NCBI GenBank assembly: GCA_017467805.1
Contig: JAFUKJ010000056.1
Span: 19,889 to 83,888 of the forward strand
Direction of reading: 5' to 3'
Length of the DNA stretch: 64,000 bases
Source: Lachnospiraceae bacterium
GTDB lineage: Bacteria; Bacillota; Clostridia; Lachnospirales; Lachnospiraceae
A program made the translations under genes and the position numbers. Shown here in pieces: positions 1 to 52,160 of the stretch. The notes beneath the pieces were generated by a model, which saw nothing but the letters and a program-made list of their open reading frames with translations, was not told the DNA's origin and ran no database searches. Each line of letters begins with the position of its first letter. The stretch's first letter is position 1.

Positions 1-2008
1 GAGGCTTATAACCATCTAATGTAAAGAAGCCTTCCTTAATCTCACTCTGTAAAGTAGTTGGCATATTCTGGAAATCTGTCACAATCTCCTTACACAGATT
101 ATCATCTGCAGAAATGGCTCTTTCTGACACCAAGGTCACAGCCTCTCCATACTCAGAGCCTTCCTCCTTTGGCTTAATCTCTGCAATCAGATAATATCCT
201 GCATCGCCGCTTGTCAGCTTATACTCATACTCAGGCTCATTTAACCGTGACACAGCCACAGGAATCTTGTCCGTACCATCTGCATCACTGCTTCGATACC
301 ATGTAATGGAAGACCAGTCCTCACCTTCTCCATCTAACTCATAGGAAAGCTTCACCACATCCGTGTCAAACTCCTCTGATGCCATAATTTCCATAGTCGG
401 ATTCAATACAGAAGGTGCAGGTAATGTCTCAGGAGTTACCGTAATATAAGTACCTGTACGAAGTCCCTTTTCTCCTGTCGCATAAATCATTCCTGCCACA
501 GAACGTCTTCCTGTGTTTACCACACTATAAGTACAGGTTCCATCGGCATTAGGAGTCAATGTCACATAGTCCTTAAGCTTATCCTCTACTTCCCATGTAA
601 CAGCGTCTGCCATGCCATCTCCCGAAACGCCTCTAAAGTAAGAAAAGCCATAGGAAATCGTATCGCTTGTTCCTGTTTTTGCCGTTACTCTAAGGGGCTT
701 TACTGTCATGGTAATTGGATAATGCAAGGCCTCTGCATCAATCGCCTCGACCTCTGCCTTATTATTCAGAGGGTCCCAGCCATCTGTTCCCTTTAAAAGA
801 TTATACGTATTATAAACCACCTTACCATCACTCTCAAGCTTATATGCCTTCAACGCCTCTGTTCCTGCGATGTCCACTGTATTGTATGGATTCTCAGCCG
901 CCACAGTAATCTGCTCTCCATTCACCGTAACATTTGCCTGATTACATCTAAGGGCATTGTTCGGCTCTGGTGTCCACTCTACCGTAAAATTCTCAGACTC
1001 GGCCTTAAACTCACAATCAATCAGCGCAACTGTTCCGCCAGCCTTTGTCAGATACTGTGTCCCCTCTACCTTAGAATCAAACTCACAGTTTAAGAATACC
1101 GCACCAGTTCCTGAGGTATTATAAAATGGCTTAGAGCTGTAGAAGCCGAAAGTACAGTCTAAAAATACCGCCGTACCAGGTAATGCATCATCTGTACACT
1201 CAATATGACAGTCCTTGAACAAAATTCTGCCATTCGTTCCCACAAAAGGACAAGCGTTTAATCGACTCAAAAAATTGCAATTTTGAGCCACAATCTTATC
1301 TCCGTTGGTAATGGCAAGCTGTGCCTGTGTTATTGCGTCTGCTCTCTTTGCTCTTCCAAGCTCAGGCTTTAAAGGATATTTCAAATCAATATTGCAGTAA
1401 TTACCCATAGTAAGATTCTCTGTTCTTGTTCCCTTACCATCAAAGTAGAACATGGTGTAATTTCCCTTTGCACCCTGCGTCTGACCTCTGTTCACCGCTA
1501 ATACTACATTGGATGGATTGCTGTTTAATCCAATCAAATGAAGGTTATCACAATCAATGACTAATCCATAAGGAACATCTCCGCTTGTGGCAACTCGGAT
1601 TCCCTCATCATCAGGGTCATCAATCCAATATACGAATGGCGCTATATACACCTTCATTGGTTCTTCCTCTGTACCATCTGTAAAGGCTGCTGCCGCCTCC
1701 ACAAAATCATTGTACACATACTCATACTTATCTGCGACTTCATCACTTAGTGTTCCGTCTACATAGATTACCTTCTCACCTAATGTAATCTGCTCTCCAT
1801 GAAACGATATACTGTCTCCTCCGAAAATAATCGGCTCATTCTGGTCTAACGAAACATATCCATCCACATTTGTCATCCCCTCTTCCTTATGCTCCAACTC
1901 CACTACTGTTGCAGGCTCTTCCTGCATCACAGCCTCCTCCTGGCTGCAGGCACACAACAGCAACGAAACTGTTGTCGCAAGCATACCTAACTTCACTCTC
2001 TTTCTCAA
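1..2008 (-). CDS. Secreted lipoprotein with predicted right-handed beta-helix, probably pectin-related (3' end missing)
   Basis: About 669 codons are visible; the gene runs off the left edge, so its C-terminus is unknown. I chose the TTG at 2008 because a perfect AAGGAGG (2017-2023) lies 8 nt upstream; an in-frame ATG at 2026 overlaps that Shine-Dalgarno and has no well-spaced one of its own. This start gives a basic n-region, a hydrophobic core and the lipobox-like LCAC, with Cys21 the likely lipidated residue. Residues about 85-330 show the repeating short strands of a parallel beta-helix (segments such as NRGQTQGAKG, RLNACPFVG and KPFYNTSGTG), which resemble uncharacterised pectinesterase/pectate-lyase-like helices of gut bacteria. 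After about residue 400 the pattern looks like Ig-like or surface-anchoring repeats. The pectate lyase at 22.6 kb supports a pectin role, but the catalytic type is not established. Confidence 0.65.
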   Translation of the reverse strand, partial: MRKRVKLGMLATTVSLLLCACSQEEAVMQEEPATVVELEHKEEGMTNVDGYVSLDQNEPIIFGGDSISFHGEQITLGEKVIYVDGTLSDEVADKYEYVYNDFVEAAAAFTDGTEEEPMKVYIAPFVYWIDDPDDEGIRVATSGDVPYGLVIDCDNLHLIGLNSNPSNVVLAVNRGQTQGAKGNYTMFYFDGKGTRTENLTMGNYCNIDLKYPLKPELGRAKRADAITQAQLAITNGDKIVAQNCNFLSRLNACPFVGTNGRILFKDCHIECTDDALPGTAVFLDCTFGFYSSKPFYNTSGTGAVFLNCEFDSKVEGTQYLTKAGGTVALIDCEFKAESENFTVEWTPEPNNALRCNQANVTVNGEQITVAAENPYNTVDIAGTEALKAYKLESDGKVVYNTYNLLKGTDGWDPLNNKAEVEAIDAEALHYPITMTVKPLRVTAKTGTSDTISYGFSYFRGVSGDGMADAVTWEVEDKLKDYVTLTPNADGTCTYSVVNTGRRSVAGMIYATGEKGLRTGTYITVTPETLPAPSVLNPTMEIMASEEFDTDVVKLSYELDGEGEDWSSITWYRSSDADGTDKIPVAVSRLNEPEYEYKLTSGDAGYYLIAEIKPKEEGSEYGEAVTLVSERAISADDNLCKEIVTDFQNMPTTLQSEIKEGFFTLDGYKP

Positions 2009-22602: not shown

Positions 22603-25600
22603 CTATGAAGCCTCTAGAACAAATCTCTGGTTATTTCCGCCAGAATAGGTCCACTGAGCAATATTTCCACCAGCTTCGCTACTCCATCCGTATACGTCAA
22701 GAGAAGAAGCATTTCCTGAAACCTTAGTCAGGAAGGATACTGTTCCATCGCCATTATCCACAATCTTGAACAACTGCATGTCTCCTCCCCAGTACTCCCA
22801 CTGGTTAATATTTGCTCCATCAGCTGCACTGCCGTTATAAACATCTAAACAGCTCTTATAGCCTGAAGCACCTGTAAGAATTGCATAGTATCCATCACCT
22901 ACACCCTTTATCTGGAATTTCTGTGCGTCATATCCATTATAATACCACTGCTGTATATTGGTTCCATTGTCAGAAAGCCCATTATATACATCAAGATAAA
23001 GGCCACTAGAAACCGACTTAATATAGTAGGTTCCGTTATAAGTAGTATCTGTACTTGAAGCTGTACTGCTTGAACTGCTTGTGTTTGCTGACGCTGTAGT
23101 CTCATTTACATACCAGTCCTGACAAGCATGTCCATTCATCTCCCACTGCTGTACATTCGCACCGCTTGAAGTACTTGCATTCGCAATCTCTACCACACAA
23201 TCCTCCATAGAGGCTCTTGTCTTAATCGTGTATGTACCATCTAAGTTCTTGCAGAACTTGAACAACATAGCACTGTCCTTTGTAGAGTATGGTCTGATTG
23301 CAATATTTCCACCGTTGGAAGTACTCTCTGCACGCAACACATAAGTGCCATCCTGCTGTGAGCGAATATAATAATAATTTCCACTTCCAAATGATTTTAA
23401 ATACCACTTCTGTGTATCATAGCCGCCATCTCCCCACTGCTGTACATTGGTTCCATCTGCCATGGAACCACCTTGAATCTCCATCAGCTGACCGCTATTT
23501 ACATTTTTAAACGTATATACCTTATCCGTGCTCATGGATACACCTAGATCATATACTTCCTCAAGTATCCAATTCTGGCAGGCATGTCCGTTTGTTTCCC
23601 ACTGCTGTACATTTGCACCACTGGTTGTATAAGCATTGACAATCTCTACACCCTTAGAATCTCCGCTGACACGTGTAAGAATCTTGTAAGAACCATCTGA
23701 GTTCTTTACAAATTTGAACTGCTGATTGGTTCCACCATTATAGGTGTAGATATCCATATTTGCTCCATTCGTATTCTTTCTTCCTTCAACATCCAGCACA
23801 TATGTCGCTGTATCACCCAAAGCTGATACAATGTAGTAATAGCCATCACCTGCTGAGAATAGTCTCCATGTGTTATGTGATGCTGAACCACTTGCCCCCC
23901 ACTGCTGCACGTTGGTATTATTCGCTGCAACGCCGCCTTCTACCTCCATATAAAGACCACTATTTGCATTCTTAATCATAACTGCTGTACCGTCTACAAA
24001 GGTTGCGTAGCTGCTTGATGTCGAGCTACTTGATGAGCTTGAAGAGCCCGATGAACTACTGCTTGATGTAAATGCTGATGAAAAGCTGTTAGATACGAAT
24101 GGCGATGCATATTTTGTAACTACCCAGCCTGACATATCACTGTCTGTAATGTACTTAAAGTAGCCAGAACTTGTCTTAGCACCTGCATAGGTTGTACAGA
24201 AGCCCTTGGTATCAATTCCATTTGAAAGATAACCTGAAAGGAGTGAATATCCGTAATTTGAGCTTGGTGCCCAGCTTGTTGTTGAATATTTTGGAGAATA
24301 ATTCAACTTTGATGGTGTAGAAGAACTACTCTTTGCTGTATAGGAATTCGAATCCCTGTAATTGCTATCGCCCACAATTTCATAACCATAATATGACTGG
24401 AAACGGCAGTTCTCACTTACCATTGTCGAACCATCGCCACCGATAATCTGTGCGCAGCCATCAGGAATACCTGAATCTGTTCCCACAAAATAGTTATTAT
24501 AAATATGTCCTGAGCCATTTCCTATCTGAGGACAACGACGAACATTCTGATCCCATGTATTGTACATAAGCGATGTACGACATCTTGTTGTCTCACTGTT
24601 CTGTGTACCATAAGCTACAGTCCAATAACGATTCTTAAACGTACAGTATGAAATCGTTACATAGTCAGGACTTCTATTAATATCCTTTGCATCGTAATAA
24701 TTATCATAAGGAGTGTTAATCCAGATAAACTTACCTACCTCATCTTTATTACGATTTAAGCTGCTTGTAAAGGAACAATGATCAATCCAAATCTGGCGTG
24801 AAGACCAAACATTGATAAGGATTCTATCCTCTACATTTACTGCCTTAAAATTGATATTACGGAAAACAATATTATCCGATGGGCTATCATTTGTTGCGCC
24901 ATAAGCATCATTGGTTCTCAACTGACAATCCTGAATTGTACCACCGCTGTAAGCACCTATGATTGTCTTATAATCACGGATACGAGTATTGGAATAACTC
25001 TTCATATCAATCGTTCCGCTCACAACGATTGTAAGTGGTGATGTAGAATCAAGATAACCAGCTAATGTACTTGCGTCTGATGCATATACTGTCTTACCCA
25101 ATACTCCACCAATATTGGCTGCCTTCTCACCTGATGAAGTTACACAGTTTGCAGAAAATCCCTGCTGTCCATACAGATTCAGCTTCCAAAGCTGTGCACC
25201 ATCACCTGTATAAGAAGCAACGCCTACCGCATTCGAACCCTGATAATAGGTTAATGCTGTACCTGTATATACATTTGTAAGCTTATAATACAAATAATAT
25301 CCATCATAATCCTTCTTTACCCCTGTAATCTGCCAGCGTTGTGGTGAATTACCTGAGTACGATGCCGCCGATACAGTACCATCTGAAGCTGCTGTCAAAT
25401 ATTTGCCATCATTCATGCTGACAATATTATAGACGCCATCTGAAACGTATACGATTTCCCAGTTTTCTGCTGTCGTTCCTGCCGCTGTCAGCCCGATAAT
25501 TGATGAACCTGACTCCGCAAGATTCTTATCCGTAGTATATGCAGTGAAATTAACTGCCTGCTTCGGATAACTTACTGCCGCCTCAACCGTTGCCATATTA

Positions 25601-25686
25601 CCAGACATAGGTTGTACAGAGCTAAATATGGTTGTTACTGCAACTACGGCTGCCAACAACAAATTTTTTAGTTTGTGTTTCCTCAT
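22603..25686 (-). CDS. Secreted pectate lyase (PL1) with ricin-type lectin modules
   Basis: 1027 residues. A signal peptide spans 1 to about 38 (cleavage near VEAAVSY). Residues about 40-170 form a ricin-like trefoil (QRWQ and QLWKL repeats); about 190-490 a PL1 beta-helix with IWIDHCSFTSS and VRRCPQIGNGSGHIYNNYF; about 535-560 a Ser-rich linker; then three ricin B/CBM13 trefoils (about 560-710, 712-860, 885-1027), each with repeated NVQQW or NIQQW units. PL1 enzymes cleave polygalacturonate by calcium-dependent beta-elimination. The usual R-x-P-x-x-R strand reads R-C-P-Q-I-G, keeping the first Arg but not the second. No sortase or S-layer anchor is seen, so it is probably free or lectin-tethered. 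A strong AGGAGG precedes the ATG. Confidence 0.9.
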   Translation of the reverse strand: MRKHKLKNLLLAAVVAVTTIFSSVQPMSGNMATVEAAVSYPKQAVNFTAYTTDKNLAESGSSIIGLTAAGTTAENWEIVYVSDGVYNIVSMNDGKYLTAASDGTVSAASYSGNSPQRWQITGVKKDYDGYYLYYKLTNVYTGTALTYYQGSNAVGVASYTGDGAQLWKLNLYGQQGFSANCVTSSGEKAANIGGVLGKTVYASDASTLAGYLDSTSPLTIVVSGTIDMKSYSNTRIRDYKTIIGAYSGGTIQDCQLRTNDAYGATNDSPSDNIVFRNINFKAVNVEDRILINVWSSRQIWIDHCSFTSSLNRNKDEVGKFIWINTPYDNYYDAKDINRSPDYVTISYCTFKNRYWTVAYGTQNSETTRCRTSLMYNTWDQNVRRCPQIGNGSGHIYNNYFVGTDSGIPDGCAQIIGGDGSTMVSENCRFQSYYGYEIVGDSNYRDSNSYTAKSSSSTPSKLNYSPKYSTTSWAPSSNYGYSLLSGYLSNGIDTKGFCTTYAGAKTSSGYFKYITDSDMSGWVVTKYASPFVSNSFSSAFTSSSSSSGSSSSSSSSTSSSYATFVDGTAVMIKNANSGLYMEVEGGVAANNTNVQQWGASGSASHNTWRLFSAGDGYYYIVSALGDTATYVLDVEGRKNTNGANMDIYTYNGGTNQQFKFVKNSDGSYKILTRVSGDSKGVEIVNAYTTSGANVQQWETNGHACQNWILEEVYDLGVSMSTDKVYTFKNVNSGQLMEIQGGSMADGTNVQQWGDGGYDTQKWYLKSFGSGNYYYIRSQQDGTYVLRAESTSNGGNIAIRPYSTKDSAMLFKFCKNLDGTYTIKTRASMEDCVVEIANASTSSGANVQQWEMNGHACQDWYVNETTASANTSSSSSTASSTDTTYNGTYYIKSVSSGLYLDVYNGLSDNGTNIQQWYYNGYDAQKFQIKGVGDGYYAILTGASGYKSCLDVYNGSAADGANINQWEYWGGDMQLFKIVDNGDGTVSFLTKVSGNASSLDVYGWSSEAGGNIAQWTYSGGNNQRFVLEAS

Positions 25687-26067
25687 AAGTCTTATTACCT
25701 CCTATTTTTCACCTTCCCTCCCTTTTACACCTTTTTCATCATTATCTCGTCAATTATTTAACATACACTGACATAATTTTTTGCGCGCAAATTAGTGTGA
25801 CTATTAAATAAATATCCCCTTGAATATTAACATAAATGATTTACATAGGAGAATTCAATATCTTTTTGAGTGTTCTAGCTCTTTTCGTGAAATGTATCCT
25901 ATTTGTATTTATAATTTTTGTGCAATTTGTTAATTTTCTAACAATCGTGCCATTTTCTTTGTTTTTTGTGTCATATATTGCTTGGTTTCTCAAAAACCTT
26001 TTATTTTCAGCTATTATAACACTCGCTTTTCATCACAGTTTCCACACATGTCCCACTAGCAAATAAA
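25687..26067. other. AT-rich intergenic region upstream of the pectate lyase
   Basis: 381 bases with no convincing gene. It is very T-rich on the plus strand. It holds the AGGAGG ribosome binding site for the pectate lyase and presumably its promoter, but I could not single out a -35/-10 pair or an operator. A GCGCGC palindrome near 25784 is the only GC-rich patch. Confidence 0.5.
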
Positions 26068-26101
26068 GGACATTATTCTAGCATTCCTTAGAATAATGTC
26101 C
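26068..26101 (-). terminator. Intrinsic terminator after glmS
   Basis: 13-bp perfect stem (26068-26080, 26089-26101) followed by TTTATTT on the minus strand. Confidence 0.85.
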
Positions 26102-26114
26102 TCTAGCTTTTTCA

Positions 26115-27944
26115 CTACTCCACTGTAACAGACTTTGCAAGATTTCTAGGCTGGTCCACATCCAATCCTCTGTAGGAAGATGTGTAATATGCCAGCAACT
26201 GTAAAATAATCGCAGCCGTAAACGGCGCAAATATATCATCACTTGCAGGAACTACCAAATGTTCATCACAGATACCATTCTCAATTGCGGCAGTATTTCC
26301 TTCCTTCGTAATCAGAATTACCATAGCGCCCCTCGCACGTACTTCCTTCACATTAGAAATCATCTTTGCAAATACATCCGCCTGAGTAGCAAGCGCGATT
26401 ACAGGTACTCCGCCTGTGATTAAAGATAATGTACCATGCTTTAACTCTCCTGCCGCATAGGCTTCTGAATGAATATAGGTAATCTCCTTCAGCTTAATGG
26501 AACCCTCACAGGACAATGCATAGTCCAGACTTCTTCCAATAAAGAACAAGTCCTGTGCAGGTGTCAGACGTTTACTGAGTTCTTTCATCTTATCCTTTTG
26601 CTCTAACACCTTCTCCATCAATTCTCCAACGCCATCCAGTCCCTTCATATATTCGGACACCTCTTGGGCACTTAATTTACCAGCCACGTAGGCGAAGCGA
26701 AATGCCAATAAATAAAATGCAGTCAACTGCGCAGTATATGCCTTTGTACTAGCTACTGCTATTTCGGGTCCCGCATGGGTATACAAAACATAATCCGATT
26801 CTCTGGCAATGGACGAGCCTTTTACATTGACAATCGAAAGCGTCTTTGCTCCTTTCTCCTTTGCAAGACGCAATGCAGCCAGCGTATCTGCTGTCTCTCC
26901 AGACTGAGAAACCAATATTACCAATGATTTCTCATCCAAAATCGGGTCCTCATAGCGAAACTCTGAAGCAACCTCTACACTTACGGGAATACGCAGCAGT
27001 CTTTCCATTAGAATCCTTCCCATCATTCCAGCGTGCATTGCTGTACCACATGCCGTGATAACAACACGATTTGTATCCCAAAATAACTCATCCGAAATTC
27101 CATCCTCAGAAAAATCAGGCAGAAGCTGCTCGCCCTTCTTCATTCGTGGAGCAAGTGTTCTACGAATTGCTTCTGGCTGTTCATGAATTTCTTTCAACAT
27201 ATAATGCTTAAAACCATTTTTCTGAGCTGCTGACATATCCCAATGAATACTTAACATGACAGGACTCACCACAGTACCATCCAGCTCCATTACTGTAATG
27301 GTATTTTTCGTAACCTTGGCTACCTGATACTCAGGAAGCACAAAATATTCCTTGGAATAACGAAGCAATGCAACCATATCTGAAGCCACTACAGAGCCTT
27401 CCTCAGAAGAGCAGCATACCAACGGGCTTCCCTTACGAATGCAATAAATAACATCCTTTTGGTCTGCAAACATAATACAGAAAGCATACGCACCTTCCAG
27501 TCTGTCCACCGCTCCACGCAATGCCGCTAAAGCATCTCCATGATATAAAGAATCCAACAGCATAGCCGCAATCTCTGTATCCGTCTGAGATGACGGCACT
27601 CTACCTGTTTCCTCCAGTTCCTTTGCTAACTCATGATAATTCTCAATAATTCCATTATGAATCAAGGTCACATTACCACACTGGTGAGGATGTGCATTTA
27701 CCTCCGACACACCGCCATGTGTTGCCCATCTGGTATGACCGATACCACAGCCAGACTCCATTCTTGACGGTAACTTATTCTCAAGTCCTGCTACCTTGCC
27801 TACAGACTTCACTACTTCGATGCCACGCTCTGTAAAACAGGCAATTCCTGCACTATCATAGCCGCGATATTCCAGCTCTGCCAGTCCCTTAATCAACTCC
27901 TGCTTTGCATCCAAATAACCACAAAAACCTATAATTCCACACAT
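26115..27944 (-). CDS. glmS: Glutamine--fructose-6-phosphate aminotransferase (isomerising)
   Basis: 609 residues. It makes glucosamine-6-phosphate from fructose-6-phosphate and glutamine. The N-terminal glutamine amidotransferase begins MCGIIGF, with Cys2 as nucleophile; two SIS domains follow (SQSGETADT; STKAYTAQ) and the C-terminus ends DQPRNLAKSVTVE, the usual form. GGAGAG precedes the ATG. Only 83 nt separate it from nagB, too short for a glmS ribozyme, which is absent; a strong hairpin fills that gap instead. Confidence 0.96.
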   Translation of the reverse strand: MCGIIGFCGYLDAKQELIKGLAELEYRGYDSAGIACFTERGIEVVKSVGKVAGLENKLPSRMESGCGIGHTRWATHGGVSEVNAHPHQCGNVTLIHNGIIENYHELAKELEETGRVPSSQTDTEIAAMLLDSLYHGDALAALRGAVDRLEGAYAFCIMFADQKDVIYCIRKGSPLVCCSSEEGSVVASDMVALLRYSKEYFVLPEYQVAKVTKNTITVMELDGTVVSPVMLSIHWDMSAAQKNGFKHYMLKEIHEQPEAIRRTLAPRMKKGEQLLPDFSEDGISDELFWDTNRVVITACGTAMHAGMMGRILMERLLRIPVSVEVASEFRYEDPILDEKSLVILVSQSGETADTLAALRLAKEKGAKTLSIVNVKGSSIARESDYVLYTHAGPEIAVASTKAYTAQLTAFYLLAFRFAYVAGKLSAQEVSEYMKGLDGVGELMEKVLEQKDKMKELSKRLTPAQDLFFIGRSLDYALSCEGSIKLKEITYIHSEAYAAGELKHGTLSLITGGVPVIALATQADVFAKMISNVKEVRARGAMVILITKEGNTAAIENGICDEHLVVPASDDIFAPFTAAIILQLLAYYTSSYRGLDVDQPRNLAKSVTVE

Positions 27945-27969
27945 AATTATTCTCTCCTTATTCGCACAA

Positions 27970-28003
27970 AGAGGTTGACTTGAGCCCTCTCAAGCCAACC
28001 TCT
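27970..28003 (-). terminator. Intercistronic hairpin between nagB and glmS
   Basis: 15-bp stem (27970-27984, 27989-28003) with one mismatch and a 4-nt loop. The T-run after it is weak. Only 25 nt lie between the stem and glmS, so glmS must be expressed by read-through; the hairpin may act as attenuator or RNA stabiliser. Confidence 0.6.
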
Positions 28004-28027
28004 TCGTTGGTAAAATTTTATTCTATT

Positions 28028-28738
28028 TTAGTTCTCACTATAAATTACTGTTAAATCAGGGTGAAGCTGTAAGATAGAAGCTGGAACCTCTGGAGTAATA
28101 GGACCAAAGAATGCCTTCTCCACGATATCCTTCTTATTCTTACCATTCGCAATTAAAAGTACCTTCTTAGCACTCATAATACCGCCCATACCCATTGTAA
28201 CTGCCTTTCTTGGCACATCTGCTTCAGATGCAAAGAAACGTGCATTTGCTTCGATTGTTGAAGGGTCAAGCTCTACTACATGAGTAGCCTTCTCAAAATA
28301 AGTATCAGGCTCGTTGAAACCGATATGTCCATCAAGACCAATACCAAGTAACTGAAGGTCAATACCACCTGACTGCTGAATCAATGCATCATATGCTTCA
28401 CATTCCTTCTGAAGGTCTGCTGCACAGCCGTTAGGAACGTTAGTCTTAGTAATATCAATATTAATCTTTGTAAAAAGGTTCGTGTTCATAAAGTAACGAT
28501 AGCTCTGGTCATTGCTTCCATCCAAGCCAACATACTCATCCAAGTTAATAGATGAAACCTTAGAAAAATCAACCTCGCCCTTTGCACACTTCTCTACAAT
28601 CTTCTCATATGTTCCAAGTGGTGAAGAACCTGTTGCCAAGCCCAATACACTATTAGGCTTTAATACTACCTGTGCACAAATCATTGCAGCTGCCTTGCAG
28701 CTAAGCTCATCGTAATTGTTTACCTTAATAAAATTCAT
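28028..28738 (-). CDS. nagB: Glucosamine-6-phosphate deaminase
   Basis: 236 residues, the short Gram-positive form. It converts glucosamine-6-phosphate to fructose-6-phosphate and ammonia, opposite to GlmS. GLATGSSPLGTYE, SSINLDEYVGL and LGIGLDGHIGFNEP carry the catalytic Asp and His. AGGAGG precedes the ATG. It lies in the same unit as glmS, a futile-cycle pair that needs control. Confidence 0.95.
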   Translation of the reverse strand: MNFIKVNNYDELSCKAAAMICAQVVLKPNSVLGLATGSSPLGTYEKIVEKCAKGEVDFSKVSSINLDEYVGLDGSNDQSYRYFMNTNLFTKINIDITKTNVPNGCAADLQKECEAYDALIQQSGGIDLQLLGIGLDGHIGFNEPDTYFEKATHVVELDPSTIEANARFFASEADVPRKAVTMGMGGIMSAKKVLLIANGKNKKDIVEKAFFGPITPEVPASILQLHPDLTVIYSEN

Positions 28739-28769
28739 ATTAATTCCTCCTTGTTTTTCGAAGAAAAAT

Positions 28770-28791
28770 GCCTGCCCGCTTATGCAGGCAG
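28770..28791 (-). terminator. Terminator-like hairpin between the acetyltransferase and nagB
   Basis: 7-bp GC-rich stem TGCCTGC/GCAGGCA, 8-nt loop, then TTTTT on the minus strand. Only 31 nt separate it from nagB, leaving no room for another promoter, so it probably acts as an attenuator. Confidence 0.7.
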
Positions 28792-28842
28792 AGGAATTTT
28801 TTCTCCTTGTATTTTAAAATTTTCTTTTGTTCTCAAGTATTA

Positions 28843-29505
28843 TTATACTCTCTCTACTACTGTCTTGGCATCCTTCACAATGCAGTTTGCAGGATATACA
28901 CCGCGAAGTGCAGTTAACGGATATACAGAAGTATTCTTACCAATCACTGTACCTGGATTAATAACAGAGCCACATCCAACATCTGCACCATCTGCTAAAA
29001 TACCGCCAATCTTTCTAAGTCCTGTCTCATAATCCTCATCACCGTGAATTACTACTGGCTTACCATCAGACTTTAAATTAGAGCAGATAGTACCAGCACC
29101 CGTATGCGCCTTGTTACCTAATACAGAATCACCAACATAGTTATAATGAGGAATCTGTACCTTATCCAGTAATACGCAATTCTTCAACTCAGAGGAATTA
29201 CCAATCACGCAGCCCTCTCCTGTAATTACACTACCACGAATAAATGCACCAGGACGCACCTCTGTATTAGAACCAATAATGGCAGGTGCCTCAATCGTAG
29301 CAGTAGGATAAATCTTTACATTCTCACCTACCAATACACCGTCTGCAATCAAAGTATAGCCAGGTATTCCCTTTTCAATCAAATCTAAAATATAGCCCTT
29401 AATCTTTGGAAGCATTTCCCATGGATACTCACTCTCTTCAAACAATGCCACAAGATACTCAGGCTGTGACGCATAAAGCTCCTTTGTCTTTACTAACTTA
29501 TTCAA
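28843..29505 (-). CDS. Left-handed beta-helix acyltransferase, GlmU C-domain-like (probable glucosamine-1-phosphate N-acetyltransferase)
   Basis: 220 residues from the TTG at 29505, chosen because AAGGAGG (29514-29520) lies 8 nt upstream; the TTG at 29526 would include that Shine-Dalgarno. A helical N-terminus (1-65) precedes a hexapeptide-repeat helix (about 75-210) with IPHYNYVGDS and AGTICSNLKSDGK, closely like the acetyltransferase half of GlmU. The uridylyltransferase half is missing. It would convert GlcN-1-P to GlcNAc-1-P, the step after the mutase whose gene it overlaps by 8 nt. Confidence 0.78.
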   Translation of the reverse strand: MNKLVKTKELYASQPEYLVALFEESEYPWEMLPKIKGYILDLIEKGIPGYTLIADGVLVGENVKIYPTATIEAPAIIGSNTEVRPGAFIRGSVITGEGCVIGNSSELKNCVLLDKVQIPHYNYVGDSVLGNKAHTGAGTICSNLKSDGKPVVIHGDEDYETGLRKIGGILADGADVGCGSVINPGTVIGKNTSVYPLTALRGVYPANCIVKDAKTVVERV

Positions 29506-31120
29506 CGCAATGTCCTCCTTCCACAATCGCTTTCACTATCATTTCTACATATTCCATACACTTTTCCTGTGTTTCACTTTCTACCATAACGCGAATCACT
29601 GGCTCTGTACCACTCTGTCTAAGAAGTGCTCTACCCTTCTTATTAATGAGCTTCTCTACCTCATCCTTTGCCTTCAATACATTCGCATCTGCCAATACTG
29701 CTGCCTTATCCTTAACTCTTACATTCTGTAAATACTGAGGATAAAGCTTAATCGGCTCGGCAAGCTTTGCCAAAGAGGTCTTAGAATCGCAAATCTCCTC
29801 TGCAAGCATAATCGCTGTTAAAATACCGTCTCCAGTAGTTGCATACTTTCTCATAATAATATGGCCTGACTGCTCACCACCGATAGCATAGTTATTATTC
29901 TGCATGCACTCATAAACAAAACGGTCACCAACCTTCGTCTGAACGCATTTGATACCTATCTCCTCAAGACTTGCAACAAAGCCACTGTTGGACATAATCG
30001 TAGTTACTACTGTGTTATCCTCCAATGTACCTCTCATCTTCAATCTCTTACCGAGAATGTAAATCATAGCATCACCGTCTACCTCATTACCATTCTCATC
30101 TACAGCGATACAACGGTCTGCATCACCATCAAAAGCAAAGCCAAGGTCTAGATGCTTCTCTTTTACAAGCTTCTTCAATGGTTCAATATGAGTAGAACCG
30201 CAGCCCTCATTGCAGTTCAGTCCATCAGGCTCATCACCAATCACATAAATCTGAGCACCAAGCGCACTGAATACCGCTCCCGCAATATTCCATGAAGCAC
30301 CATTTGCACAATCAAGACCAATTCTCAAATTCTTATAGGAATTAGAAGCCAAAGAAATCAAATATCCGATATAGCGGTTTCTTCCTGCTGAGTAATCATG
30401 GATGCAGCCAATCTTAGACTTCTGAGCTAACGGTAAATCATCTCCCGTAACACCAAGTGTCTTCAAATCGCCATCAATATATGCCTCAATCAGGGCAGTT
30501 GTCTCGTCATCCAGCTTCTCACCGTATGCATTGATTACCTTAATACCGTTATCGTAATAAGGATTGTGAGATGCTGTAATCATGATACCACAGTCAAACT
30601 CATCCTTACGGGTTACATAGGAAACACCTGGGGTAGTAATAACATGAAGCATATAAGCATCTGCACCACTGGCTGTAATACCTGCAACGATAGAGTACTC
30701 TAACATATAGCTGGAACGTCTAGTATCCTTACCTATGACAATACGCGGACGGTAGCCTGGCTTTGTACAGCCTGAAAGCTTAGAAGAATAATACCAGCCA
30801 AGGAATCTTCCTACACGATACGCCTGCATAGAGGTCAGAGTAACATTTGCCTCTCCACGGAAGCCATCTGTGCCAAAGTACTTATTCACTCTCGGTTCAT
30901 TCGCCGATGTACGGTTAATCTCTATCTTATCCAGTAAAAGTTCATCTGTTGATACACTAAAAATCTCTGCAAGCTGTAACACCTTATCAATCTGCGGAAG
31001 TGCCTGATCCATCTCCCACTTAGAAATGGACTGTCTGGAAACACCAAGTGTCTCTGCCAGCTGCTCCTGAGAAATGTCAGCGGCATTTCTTAACTGTATG
31101 ATTTTCTGTCCGATTGTCAT
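29498..31120 (-). CDS. glmM: Phosphoglucosamine mutase with fused N-terminal XRE-type helix-turn-helix
   Basis: 540 residues in one uninterrupted frame. Residues 1-66 are a Cro/CI-type DNA-binding domain (ISQEQLAETLGVSRQSISKW is the helix-turn-helix). A short linker leads to a complete phosphohexomutase from about 79: FGTDGFRGE, catalytic Ser184 in TASHNP, metal loop DGDADR (331-336), GGEQSGH and the phosphate-binding RQSGTEPVIR. No start codon lies at the domain joint, and AAGGAG precedes the ATG of the fused form, so the fusion looks real. It converts GlcN-6-P to GlcN-1-P. The DNA-binding part suggests it also controls this amino-sugar operon. PgcA/ManB specificity cannot be wholly excluded, but the neighbours favour GlmM. 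Confidence 0.92.
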   Translation of the reverse strand: MTIGQKIIQLRNAADISQEQLAETLGVSRQSISKWEMDQALPQIDKVLQLAEIFSVSTDELLLDKIEINRTSANEPRVNKYFGTDGFRGEANVTLTSMQAYRVGRFLGWYYSSKLSGCTKPGYRPRIVIGKDTRRSSYMLEYSIVAGITASGADAYMLHVITTPGVSYVTRKDEFDCGIMITASHNPYYDNGIKVINAYGEKLDDETTALIEAYIDGDLKTLGVTGDDLPLAQKSKIGCIHDYSAGRNRYIGYLISLASNSYKNLRIGLDCANGASWNIAGAVFSALGAQIYVIGDEPDGLNCNEGCGSTHIEPLKKLVKEKHLDLGFAFDGDADRCIAVDENGNEVDGDAMIYILGKRLKMRGTLEDNTVVTTIMSNSGFVASLEEIGIKCVQTKVGDRFVYECMQNNNYAIGGEQSGHIIMRKYATTGDGILTAIMLAEEICDSKTSLAKLAEPIKLYPQYLQNVRVKDKAAVLADANVLKAKDEVEKLINKKGRALLRQSGTEPVIRVMVESETQEKCMEYVEMIVKAIVEGGHCVE

Positions 31121-31143
31121 ATGCGCTCTCCTTCATTTACAAT

Positions 31144-31155
31144 ATACTACTGTAT
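31144..31155. promoter_or_regulatory. Small dyad in the glmM-fusion leader
   Basis: ATAC-N4-GTAT between the promoter and the start codon. Such dyads are common XRE operators; a possible autoregulatory site, by inference. Confidence 0.3.
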
Positions 31156-31165
31156 TATGTAATTA

Positions 31166-31194
31166 ATTATAACAACACACATATACCCTTTCAA
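31166..31194 (-). promoter_or_regulatory. Promoter of the glmM-fusion operon
   Basis: TTGAAA (-35, 31189-31194), 17-bp spacer, TATAAT (-10, 31166-31171). A second perfect dyad, GCAACT-GCA-AGTTGC (31217-31231), lies 22 bp upstream. Confidence 0.7.
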
Positions 31195-31314
31195 GCAACT
31201 TTACTCCTCTTTTTTCGCAACTGCAAGTTGCATTTTTCGTTTTTTTAGTCATTTTGCGCTGTTGAAAACTTGATTTTTTAAAAAAATAGGCTTTTTTTGT
31301 AAAGTTCAATTTAC

Positions 31315-31355
31315 AAAAAGCTCGTATTTTATGTTTCATAAAATACGAGCTTTTT
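31315..31355 (-). terminator. Terminator after the cytidylate-kinase-like gene
   Basis: 19-bp perfect stem (31315-31333, 31337-31355) with A and T tracts at its ends. A second A/T-rich hairpin lies beside it (about 31291-31320). Able to work in both directions. Confidence 0.85.
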
Positions 31356-31366
31356 ATCTCATCGAT

Positions 31367-31969
31367 TTACTTCTTCATCATTCCCGCAAGTACATCTACA
31401 CAACAATCCAATCCCAAACTACCACTATCCAGACATATATCAAAGTGCTCAATATCGCCCCATTTCCAGCCTGTATGTGTGTTATAGAAATCACTACGTC
31501 TCTTATCAGCCTTACGCAGGAAATAATCAGCATCATCTTTTGCAATTTTCTCTGTTTCAATCGCACGATTTAAACGATACTGCTTGTCCGCACGCACAAA
31601 TACCTTTAAGCAGTCAGGTCTGTCTCGCAAAATATAAGATGCACATCTTCCAACGATAACACAATCCTGCTTTTCCACAATCTCTTCTATAATCTTTTTC
31701 TCTTCGAGAAAGATTCTCTCTGCCAATGAAAGATTGGTCTTTCCCTTCTGACTTCCGCCAAGTACTGTCTGAGAAAGATTGAAAATGCTGCTTCCAGGTG
31801 CTGTCTCTTCAAGCTGCTCCACATAGATTGCAGGAATTTCAAGCCTTTTTGCTACTTCTACCAGAAGGCTTCTGTCATACAAGGCAATCCCCAGCTTCTT
31901 AGCTACACGTTTACCGATTTCATTACCACCACTTGCAAACTCTCGTTCCATTGTAATAATCTTATACAT
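31367..31969 (-). CDS. Cytidylate-kinase-like family protein
   Basis: 200 residues. The N-terminus reads IITMEREFASGGNEIGKRVA, the P-loop-like region of the Cytidylate_kin2 family. VIVGRCASYIL and DKRRSDFYNTHTGWKWGD are conserved family segments. The lid and nucleotide-binding parts are intact but the true substrate is unknown; these proteins are distinct from Cmk. GGAGAG precedes the ATG. Monocistronic with its own terminator. Confidence 0.8.
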   Translation of the reverse strand: MYKIITMEREFASGGNEIGKRVAKKLGIALYDRSLLVEVAKRLEIPAIYVEQLEETAPGSSIFNLSQTVLGGSQKGKTNLSLAERIFLEEKKIIEEIVEKQDCVIVGRCASYILRDRPDCLKVFVRADKQYRLNRAIETEKIAKDDADYFLRKADKRRSDFYNTHTGWKWGDIEHFDICLDSGSLGLDCCVDVLAGMMKK

Positions 31970-34697: not shown

Positions 34698-35333
34698 TTA
34701 GCTTAAGCTTTTCATCACGTTTTCTACATAATCTATCACAATTTTCCACTCCAAGTCTCCAACATAAAAATTATTTTTTCGAAACTGGACCCAAAGTTCT
34801 TCCATATGCAAATCACTGGATATCATATGTAATACTTCTTCTATGTCATTCGAAGCAAAAATAGTTTTTCTCTTTTCACATGTAGCAGAGAATGCTTCAT
34901 ATAAAACTTGCTGGTCTATCTGCTCTCCATAGAAATTCATTATACTATATATATCATAAAAATCTCTTAATCTGGTATTCGCTAGACCTCTATTTATTAT
35001 TGTCTGCATCTTCTCAGCGAGCAATGTTTCTCTATTATATGTAAGAACTGAAATCGTTCTATCCTCAAACATTAACTTATAATCATATTCTACCGCTTTT
35101 GGTGTTATCACATCATCTGTAGAAATGTCTATTTTGATTGGCTGACGCACCCTGTCTAGCGTAGCTTCCAGCATTCCGCCTTTAAGTATAAAATTGTCTC
35201 TATACGAAGATATAGATACTCTTTCTAAAAACCTTTCCATCATAAAATTTCGAATTAACATAGTTGCTTTATTACTGTTTCCACATGAAATATTTCTCAC
35301 TTTATCTTTTAACTGTTTTGACGAACTAATCAC
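34698..35333 (-). CDS. AbiEii-type toxin with internal in-frame deletion (probably inactive)
   Basis: 211 residues, against roughly 280-300 for AbiEii/AbiGii nucleotidyltransferase toxins. Motif I is present (NFILKGGML, about 47-55) but is followed at once by EATLDRVRQPIKIDISTDD, a segment normally some 65 residues further on; the intervening stretch with the metal-binding Asp pair (MDLD-type motif) is missing. The conserved ISVLTYNRETLLAEKMQTI and RLRDFYDIYSI parts remain. The frame is intact and the start overlaps the antitoxin stop by ATGA. I infer loss of nucleotidyltransferase activity. Full-length relatives were compared from memory, so the deletion size is approximate. Confidence 0.8.
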   Translation of the reverse strand: MISSSKQLKDKVRNISCGNSNKATMLIRNFMMERFLERVSISSYRDNFILKGGMLEATLDRVRQPIKIDISTDDVITPKAVEYDYKLMFEDRTISVLTYNRETLLAEKMQTIINRGLANTRLRDFYDIYSIMNFYGEQIDQQVLYEAFSATCEKRKTIFASNDIEEVLHMISSDLHMEELWVQFRKNNFYVGDLEWKIVIDYVENVMKSLS

Positions 35334-35929
35334 ACTAACACCTCCACATACTTCATCACTTCATCCCGAATTCCCATCTTGTCCGCATAAACCATCAAAT
35401 GCGATAACTTTTTATCCTTTGATGACATATATTCTTTTACAGCTGTTTGAAATATCTGTACTTCGTACTTATTGCGATTCATAATCAAGTCACAAATACA
35501 ACGCTCTTTATCATAAACCTTAACCATATTTCCGCTACTGGATGGAATCTCACAAATTCCAGTTTTATAAGAATCTGGTCTTACATATCTCACAGAAACT
35601 GTAACATCATTATTCTTTAAGTGACTTGCATTATATCCTTGTGGCACTGTGATACAAATTGATGAATATTCCCTATCTGTCAAACCATGCAAATAAAGAG
35701 CTGTTTCCCCTGAATAAATAATTGCACTGTTTCTTTGCTGTAGTATAAATAATTCATCTGGCCACACATCATCCGTAATGTAAACCCCTCTGGTAACCTT
35801 CTCCATTCCATGTTCTTTAATATATTTAGCAAGATACGTCTTGGAAATATCTTCATTACACACCAAGGAAGTAATAAGATAACCATTATATTTTTCAATA
35901 AAATTTTCAATTTTTTCTTTTTTAGTCAT
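35330..35929 (-). CDS. AbiEi-type (type IV) antitoxin and autorepressor
   Basis: 199 residues from the ATG at 35929 (GAGGTGG about 5 nt upstream); a GTG at 35938 is the alternative. The N-terminal winged helix (1-90: YLITSLVCNEDISKTYLAKYIK; KVTRGVYI) is followed by the AbiEi_4-type C-domain (SGETALYLHGLTDRE; VKVYDKERCICDLI). In characterised AbiE systems this protein represses its operon and neutralises the toxin. It appears intact, as does its operator at 35947-35992, in contrast with the damaged toxin gene. Confidence 0.85.
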   Translation of the reverse strand: MTKKEKIENFIEKYNGYLITSLVCNEDISKTYLAKYIKEHGMEKVTRGVYITDDVWPDELFILQQRNSAIIYSGETALYLHGLTDREYSSICITVPQGYNASHLKNNDVTVSVRYVRPDSYKTGICEIPSSSGNMVKVYDKERCICDLIMNRNKYEVQIFQTAVKEYMSSKDKKLSHLMVYADKMGIRDEVMKYVEVLV

Positions 35930-35946
35930 AGTTCCCACCTCTGCAG

Positions 35947-52041: not shown

Positions 52042-52160
52042 TCCTCTTATTGTTCGATTCATATTACTATGAAATATACTCGCTCAGGTTGGCACCTTCC
52101 TTTAAGGGGTTGCCGTGGCTTCGCAGATCCTTTGTATCTCCACCACTCTGAATAAGAGAA
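52042..52160 (-). ncRNA. SAM-I (S-box) riboswitch aptamer of metK
   Basis: On the minus strand the P1 stem pairs TCTCTTATT with AATAAGAGGA. The conserved core shows AGAGTGGTGGAG, GAAGCCACGGCAACC, AAGGTGCCAACCTGAGCGAG and GAATCGAACAATAAGA, the S-box order. SAM binding should favour the terminator at 51995-52019 and shut metK off. Confidence 0.92.

Follow-up and report, generated by a model that had tools for sequence, protein, structure and literature searches.

Among the described systems closest to the one reported here, BirA and PutA are each presented as both an enzyme and a repressor (excerpt of PMC6978683), and GlmM itself has a second, regulatory role, in that it regulates the c-di-AMP cyclase CdaA/DacA (excerpts of PMC8573169 and PMC6368335). 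The latter control works by protein-protein inhibition and without a DNA-binding domain, unlike the fusion described below, and the glmS ribozyme (RF00234), which also controls amino-sugar-phosphate synthesis, is an RNA acting on glmS. Here we describe a gene in which a helix-turn-helix (HTH) domain of the XRE (Cro/CI) type is joined to the phosphoglucosamine mutase GlmM, located on a 64,000-nucleotide stretch of a Lachnospiraceae bacterium (assembly GCA_017467805.1, contig JAFUKJ010000056.1, positions 19,889 to 83,888; hereafter the window). Judged from comparative evidence, the encoded protein is likely to be a bifunctional enzyme that also acts as autoregulator of an amino-sugar synthesis operon.

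An XRE domain joined to a complete GlmM

The fused gene (29498..31120, minus strand) is a single frame of 540 aa with an ATG start and no internal stops. Its XRE (HTH_3) DNA-binding domain occupies residues 1-65 (30926..31120, minus strand) with the recognition helix SRQSISKWE, and the HTH_3 profile covers residues 7-61 with 55 bits against a gathering cut-off of 23. The GlmM part, delimited by domain profiles and alignment, comprises residues 79-540 (29501..30886, minus strand) and contains Ser184, D331/D333/D335, GGEQSGH and RQSGTE; a profile search matched all four PGM/PMM domains inside residues 80-530, and the GlmM equivalog TIGR01455 scored 504 bits over residues 82-532 against a cut-off of 448, with 501 and 492 bits for L062 and L074, respectively. 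The closest solved relative of the mutase part is the GlmM structure 7ojr (430 bits) and the nearest solved chain to the HTH is 7t8i, the Xre regulator of ICEBs1, while the top NCBIfam match of the HTH, RstR, remains below its cut-off (61 vs 80). S184, D331/D333/D335, G415-E416-S418-G419-H420 and R501-S503-G504-T505 are invariant across 28 aligned sequences, 18 of them fused, and we take them to represent the catalytic serine, the metal loop, the sugar loop and the phosphate loop, respectively. The initial annotation had read this gene as an intact Cro/CI domain in frame with a complete GlmM, which is borne out by the 540-aa frame and by the HTH_3, PGM/PMM and TIGR01455 scores; by these profile matches, enzyme and DNA-binding domain share one chain, as in enzyme-repressors of the BirA/PutA type.

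A search for further proteins combining an HTH with a phosphohexomutase, as had been suggested at the outset, covered a bacterial genome scan (best 80 of 576 loci) and sets of 39 genomes from the genus, 392 from the order and 391 from the class. It returned 38 fused loci, corresponding to 37 distinct ones including that of the window (L252 is the same record as L076), all from Clostridia and, as shown below, all in one clade; this number is a lower bound, since the scan retained the 80 best out of 576 confirmed stretches, while the order and class sets are samples. Within the genus of the window the fused gene is present in 4 of 39 genomes. Taking matches at E up to 1e-130 as a marker of the second GlmM clade, to which the fusion belongs, 110 of 392 genomes of the order sample match, of which 4 are fused, and 53 of 391 genomes of the class sample, of which 15 are fused (the window's genome included in both cases). 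The 16 fused loci with named records all derive from metagenome-assembled genomes (Clostridia, Lachnospiraceae, Oscillospiraceae), mostly of ruminant origin, which would be in line with a chance fusion or an artefact of assembly or annotation; as the 37 distinct fusions come from many separate assemblies and share the same architecture and operator, we regard the probability of a chance fusion or such an artefact as negligible. The HTH-GlmM fusion is real and no accident.

When only the mutase part was placed on a maximum-likelihood tree (68 rows), all 37 fused genes grouped in one clade with three unfused genes (L075, L258 and L259; support 100/100). The fusion belongs to a deep second GlmM clade, with 37-46% identity to the ordinary GlmM found in the same genus and order. 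The fusion trait changes four times on this tree (5%-95% range 4-4 over 200 bootstrap trees, none with a single change), which most simply suggests one gain followed by three losses of the HTH. L258 and L259 begin, by eye, with apparent remains of the HTH start, which fits an in-frame deletion. Separate HTH genes located beside unfused GlmM genes (L083, L085, L089 and L100) were considered as split fusions and rejected, since they encode XRE proteins whose helix differs and which, by eye, have membrane segments.

The proposal of a regulatory fusion also depended on the HTH being conserved in close relatives. It is present in the 37 distinct genes, with three relatives having lost it, and its dN (0-0.16) is lower than its dS (0.2-2.7) in 12 out of 12 pairs of fused genes, indicating that the HTH is kept by selection. 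Mean pairwise identity among 24 fused genes (leaving out L071, which is cut) amounts to 0.93 for helix 3, 0.68 for the whole HTH, 0.26 for the linker and 0.75 for the mutase.

A predicted operator shared by the promoters of fused genes

Reading the promoters of fused genes side by side, we observed a shared dyad, GCAACY-N3-RGTTGC, which the initial annotation had not noticed; behind it comes a third half-site extending into the -35 hexamer. In the window, the dyad GCAACTTGCAGTTGC (read on the minus strand) lies at 31217-31231 and is the sole exact pattern match in the genome assembly. The third half-site AGTTGCTTG (31192..31200, minus strand) was located by promoter comparison, and with its TTG begins the -35 of the predicted promoter (31166..31194, minus strand), which consists of -35 TTGAAA (31194-31189), a 17-nt spacer and -10 TATAAT (31171-31166). 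This promoter, assigned by consensus match only, agrees with the consensus at 11 of 12 positions and is the best within 25600-31500. The putative operator, with its preferred place relative to the -35 and -10, lies inside 31121-31260, the region earlier proposed for a gel shift.

When the dyad is scored over its 12 informative bases, 33 of 36 distinct fused promoters have an exact match, while one matches at 11/12 and two at 10/12 (L071 starts at a contig end without upstream sequence and is not counted among the 36; L162 is exact and counted). In the first set, 17 out of 19 fused promoters carried exact dyads, compared with a best score of 9/12 in 64 unfused loci of the same clade and of 10/12 in ordinary GlmM (50 loci, representing 37 distinct genes). 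A later test set (L211-L213) gave three exact dyads out of three, and a second one (L244-L257) 13 out of 14 with the remaining one at 11/12, the duplicate L252 being among the 14. Counting only distinct fused genes found after the motif had been defined, 15 out of 16 are exact and one scores 11/12, and 13 further distinct unfused genes reach at most 9/12. Overall, none of the 114 distinct promoters of GlmM genes without a fusion (64 + 13 from the same clade, 37 ordinary) reached 11/12 or more, and one reached 10/12.

The arrangement of the elements is preferred as well. The GTTG core of the third half-site lies 16 nt beyond the dyad (the gap ends with the base preceding the G) in 23 of 36 promoters and at 15-18 nt in 34 of 36; in offset profiles unconfined in range, no offset elsewhere occurs more than five times. 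The last TTG of the third half-site usually forms the start of the -35, which mostly begins with TTG. In 22 of 36 promoters, a hexamer resembling a -10 (5 or 6 of 6 positions) begins 53 nt away from the centre of the dyad, the next best offsets occurring four times, and 10 of 23 promoters have TATAAT without mismatch as their -10. These data also bear on the idea that the dyad functions in RNA, as a hairpin or terminator, and is no DNA operator, which a pattern scan would support by calling the window dyad terminator-like on the plus strand. However, the dyad is located upstream of the -35 and hence outside the transcript of this promoter, the direct third half-site and the preferred distance to the -10 would go unexplained, and a T-run beside the dyad is, by eye, not found in all sequences listed, making a hairpin very improbable.

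Two loci with rearranged upstream regions point to an operator that goes with the promoter: in L074 the dyad, with a weaker third half-site, is located before a short glmS remnant that precedes the fused gene, and in L009 the promoter and the start codon are separated by about 155 additional nt relative to L008, leaving the operator intact. The glmS remnant in L074 (7640-8000, between operator/promoter and the fused gene) has a large internal deletion, reflecting either real decay or an assembly error, and the insert in L009 (G024:C54) is partly palindromic by eye and is perhaps a small mobile repeat. Furthermore, the three HTH-less genes of the fused clade (L075, L258 and L259) have a dyad score of 8/12, equal to background, and the genome of L075 carries a second, fused copy 20 kb away with an exact operator. 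The occurrence of the dyad at fused promoters and its absence before unfused relatives and before the three HTH-less genes strongly support, by comparison, the autoregulation, though not the substrate sensing, suggested in the initial annotation.

We also searched 21 fused genomes for further sites and found 32 exact dyads, 18 of which are fused promoters, compared with four forward sites for a reversed-pattern control. Of the 14 further dyads, five precede genes of free HTH regulators whose helix is SRQ[SA][IV]SKWE (L168, L171, L172, L173 and L174) in three genomes; since L168, L171 and L174 seem to be the same gene in three genomes and G055 alone contains three of the five loci, they represent approximately three kinds of gene. 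This suggests that GCAACY-N3-RGTTGC may be an operator for this recognition helix, which the fusion shares with some free XRE regulators, and the predicted operator may help to predict targets of such free regulators in these genomes. One could argue from the same finding that the operator serves another regulator, e.g., a free HTH paralogue, with the fused HTH being passive, as three of the 21 fused genomes contain free regulators sharing both helix and dyad. Nevertheless, the window's genome contains the exact dyad only once, at the fused promoter, the three HTH-less genes also lack the dyad, and the HTH of the fusion is conserved, so that a role for another regulator appears quite improbable. 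Taken together, the comparison identifies the fusion, its clade, a putative operator, the joint absence of HTH and operator, and the same operator before free regulators with the same helix.

A further dyad (L178, genome G071, position 1967) precedes the gene of a PPi-dependent phosphofructokinase (621-1862, minus strand) and is accompanied by a third half-site and a -10, making this gene a possible second operator target. The three-part pattern returned 19 rows in total, comprising 13 fused promoters, the phosphofructokinase, L180 and four others, two of which are identical. L180 (genome G059, dyad at 1804) has a three-part operator with a -10 and no clear gene behind it, perhaps representing a small RNA or an assembly joint. 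A wider regulon was considered and rejected, as seven of the 14 further dyads fall inside reading frames or lack a clear promoter and were attributed to chance (the control gave four).

Amino-sugar gene cluster, enzyme role and glmS ribozyme

Downstream of the fused gene, and on the same strand, follow genes for a GlmU-C-like hexapeptide acetyltransferase homologue without uridyltransferase domain (28843..29505, minus strand), for the glucosamine-6-phosphate deaminase NagB (28028..28738, minus strand) and for GlmS (26115..27944, minus strand), the latter two assigned by profile matches, with GlmS being the only one found in the genome at E up to 1e-60. By our own reading, the GlmU-C-like gene probably starts with TTG at 29505 and thereby overlaps the stop of the fused gene. 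A hexapeptide gene is found directly 3' of the fused gene (overlapping or within 17 nt) in 33 of 37 distinct fused loci, NagB no more than 122 nt downstream in at least 17 of 37, and GlmS within the cluster in at least 9 of 37, five of which have it 3-31 nt after the end of the hexapeptide gene; these counts are lower bounds, since many loci extend just 1.5 kb downstream. The view that the fused gene heads an amino-sugar operon with NagB and GlmS holds with regard to strand and order, while joint transcription in the window is less certain: the gaps before NagB and GlmS measure 108 and 87 nt, compared with often 3-31 nt in relatives, and a terminator-like hairpin is located at 28792-28769, so that joint transcription is inferred mainly from the relatives. 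The GlmU-C-like protein (28843-29505) consists of the left-handed helix domain only and is often encoded beside the second GlmM clade. Near the fused operon, the window also contains an AbiEii-like nucleotidyltransferase toxin gene (34698-35938, minus strand; PF08843) with a weak, below cut-off match to an AbiEi-type antitoxin upstream.

In 12 of 17 genomes reached via named loci (genome completeness not given), a search at E up to 1e-30 gave no GlmM-like match besides the fused gene, which argues for an active and needed phosphoglucosamine mutase there. For the organism of the window a role as sole GlmM found no support: the three other fused genomes of the genus keep an ordinary GlmM; the window's genome retains approximately the first 140 residues of an ordinary GlmM, cut by a contig end, and in this genus the fused gene is an extra copy beside the kept ordinary one. 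In the four genus genomes with the fusion, the GlmS of the fused operon is the only one present, and all 35 others have GlmS proteins with 45-53% identity to it (completeness is 95% for the window's assembly and 78% for G014, one of the four). Here the operon with the fusion appears to have been acquired and to have displaced the resident GlmS protein, possibly in one event, as the four genomes group together on the tree.

The initial annotation had further stated that this operon lacks the glmS ribozyme and that the fusion may replace it. The first statement is correct, as RF00234 was not found in the window or in the genome assembly (positive control B. subtilis); the window's only Rfam match at gathering scores is a SAM riboswitch at 52044-52158 (minus strand; RF00162, 69 bits). 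In a wider set with stricter filters, the ribozyme was present in none of 21 fused and in 9 of 49 unfused genomes (representing 49 of the 64 unfused loci of the first set), and within the genus it is absent from four of four fused and from 26 of 35 unfused genomes. The nine genus genomes with a ribozyme (out of 39) all carry it just upstream of a GlmS gene (48-53% identity), and each has a second GlmS without ribozyme. Because the unfused relatives are mostly without ribozyme too (40 of 49 in the wider set, and the majority in the genus), replacement finds no specific support: the fusion could do the ribozyme's job, with no clear sign of it specifically taking its place.

Proposed mechanism and relation to known systems

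The mutase part of the fused protein would make glucosamine-1-phosphate, while its N-terminal XRE domains, paired via the GlmM dimer, would bind the dyad GCAACY-N3-RGTTGC. A third half-site approximately two helical turns beyond the dyad, running into the -35 of the protein's own promoter, would be bound in addition, and the bound protein would repress the operon of fused glmM, the glmU-C-like gene, nagB and glmS. GlmM is a dimer in solved structures (excerpt of PMC8573169), and such a dimer would pair two N-terminal HTHs for the dyad, given a suitable placement of the domains. The occupancy of the mutase active site or its phosphorylation state, as a reflection of the amino-sugar phosphate supply, probably sets the affinity for DNA, the mutase's own ligands or the state of its phospho-serine being natural candidates for the sensed signal. 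Physical binding, repression over activation and control by a ligand are what we infer from this arrangement.

Several observations weigh against this interpretation or limit it. The dyads of L066 and L070 are degenerate, and the whole HTH (0.68) is slightly less conserved than the mutase (0.75). The joint loss of HTH and dyad rests on three events, and a paired test of it cannot reach significance, with two pairs on the well-supported (starred) branches and four on all branches; the starred branches alone force just two changes of the fusion trait. Moreover, by the predicted start the dyad is centred at approximately -65 and the third half-site at approximately -41 to -36, where activation by an XRE protein is also possible. 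An HTH that activates its own promoter would be compatible with this geometry, since both the third half-site abutting the -35 and the dyad near -65 would allow contact with RNA polymerase. However, many loci have -35 and -10 hexamers close to consensus (in the window, TTGAAA-17-TATAAT), which is unusual for an activator-dependent promoter. Together with the half-site running into the -35, this favours repression, leaving activation improbable.

Within a repressive mode of action, the fusion could also be a plain concentration-based autorepressor, in which the HTH holds the amount of enzyme constant and the mutase senses no metabolite. The evidence for autoregulation fits such a protein equally well. 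Against it, the HTH is attached to an enzyme of a pathway whose other enzymes share the cluster, and by analogy with BirA and PutA this combination goes with ligand control; BirA and PutA are themselves controlled by ligands. We therefore consider plain autorepression rather unlikely, yet the most serious of the alternatives. The preferred reading, a bifunctional enzyme and autoregulator, might be extended further: the fused mutase may be a dedicated amino-sugar-phosphate sensor, whose catalytic cycle gates DNA binding and so sets the supply of UDP-GlcNAc precursors in ribozyme-less Clostridia, and which has been recruited in at least one lineage to the fructose-6-phosphate node, i.e., the PPi-dependent phosphofructokinase with its three-part operator. 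This extended model is put forward tentatively, being conceivable but somewhat short of an even chance.

How ribozyme-less Clostridia match supply and demand of cell-wall precursors found no answer among the literature matches listed, and the fusion is a concrete candidate. It also offers an operator mapped to the base, along with natural controls in the form of HTH losses. Among the matches listed from the open-access PMC literature, judged by titles and the beginnings of abstracts, we found no HTH-GlmM or HTH-phosphohexomutase fusion.

Compared with known GlmM proteins (TIGR01455; PDB 7ojr, 3pdk and 6gyz), the fusion shares the whole mutase part, the catalytic motifs and a score above the curated cut-off, but has an XRE domain attached to its N-terminus through a variable linker and belongs to a deep second clade. 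With XRE and RstR-type regulators (HTH_3; 7t8i) it has in common the HTH_3 profile, the SRQ[SA][IV]SKWE helix and the dyad of the five free regulators, whereas its effector part is a metabolic enzyme. As in BirA and PutA, a pathway enzyme is joined to a DNA-binding domain, with a putative operator at its own operon; the enzyme is unrelated, and ligand control is proposed for the fusion. The DNA-binding domains of PutA and BirA differ from the XRE type, and NadR is a further enzyme-repressor with a DNA-binding domain of its own. In conclusion, an enzyme carrying its own repressor domain belongs to a known class of mechanism; within the literature searched, the enzyme, operator and pathway described here are new to this class.

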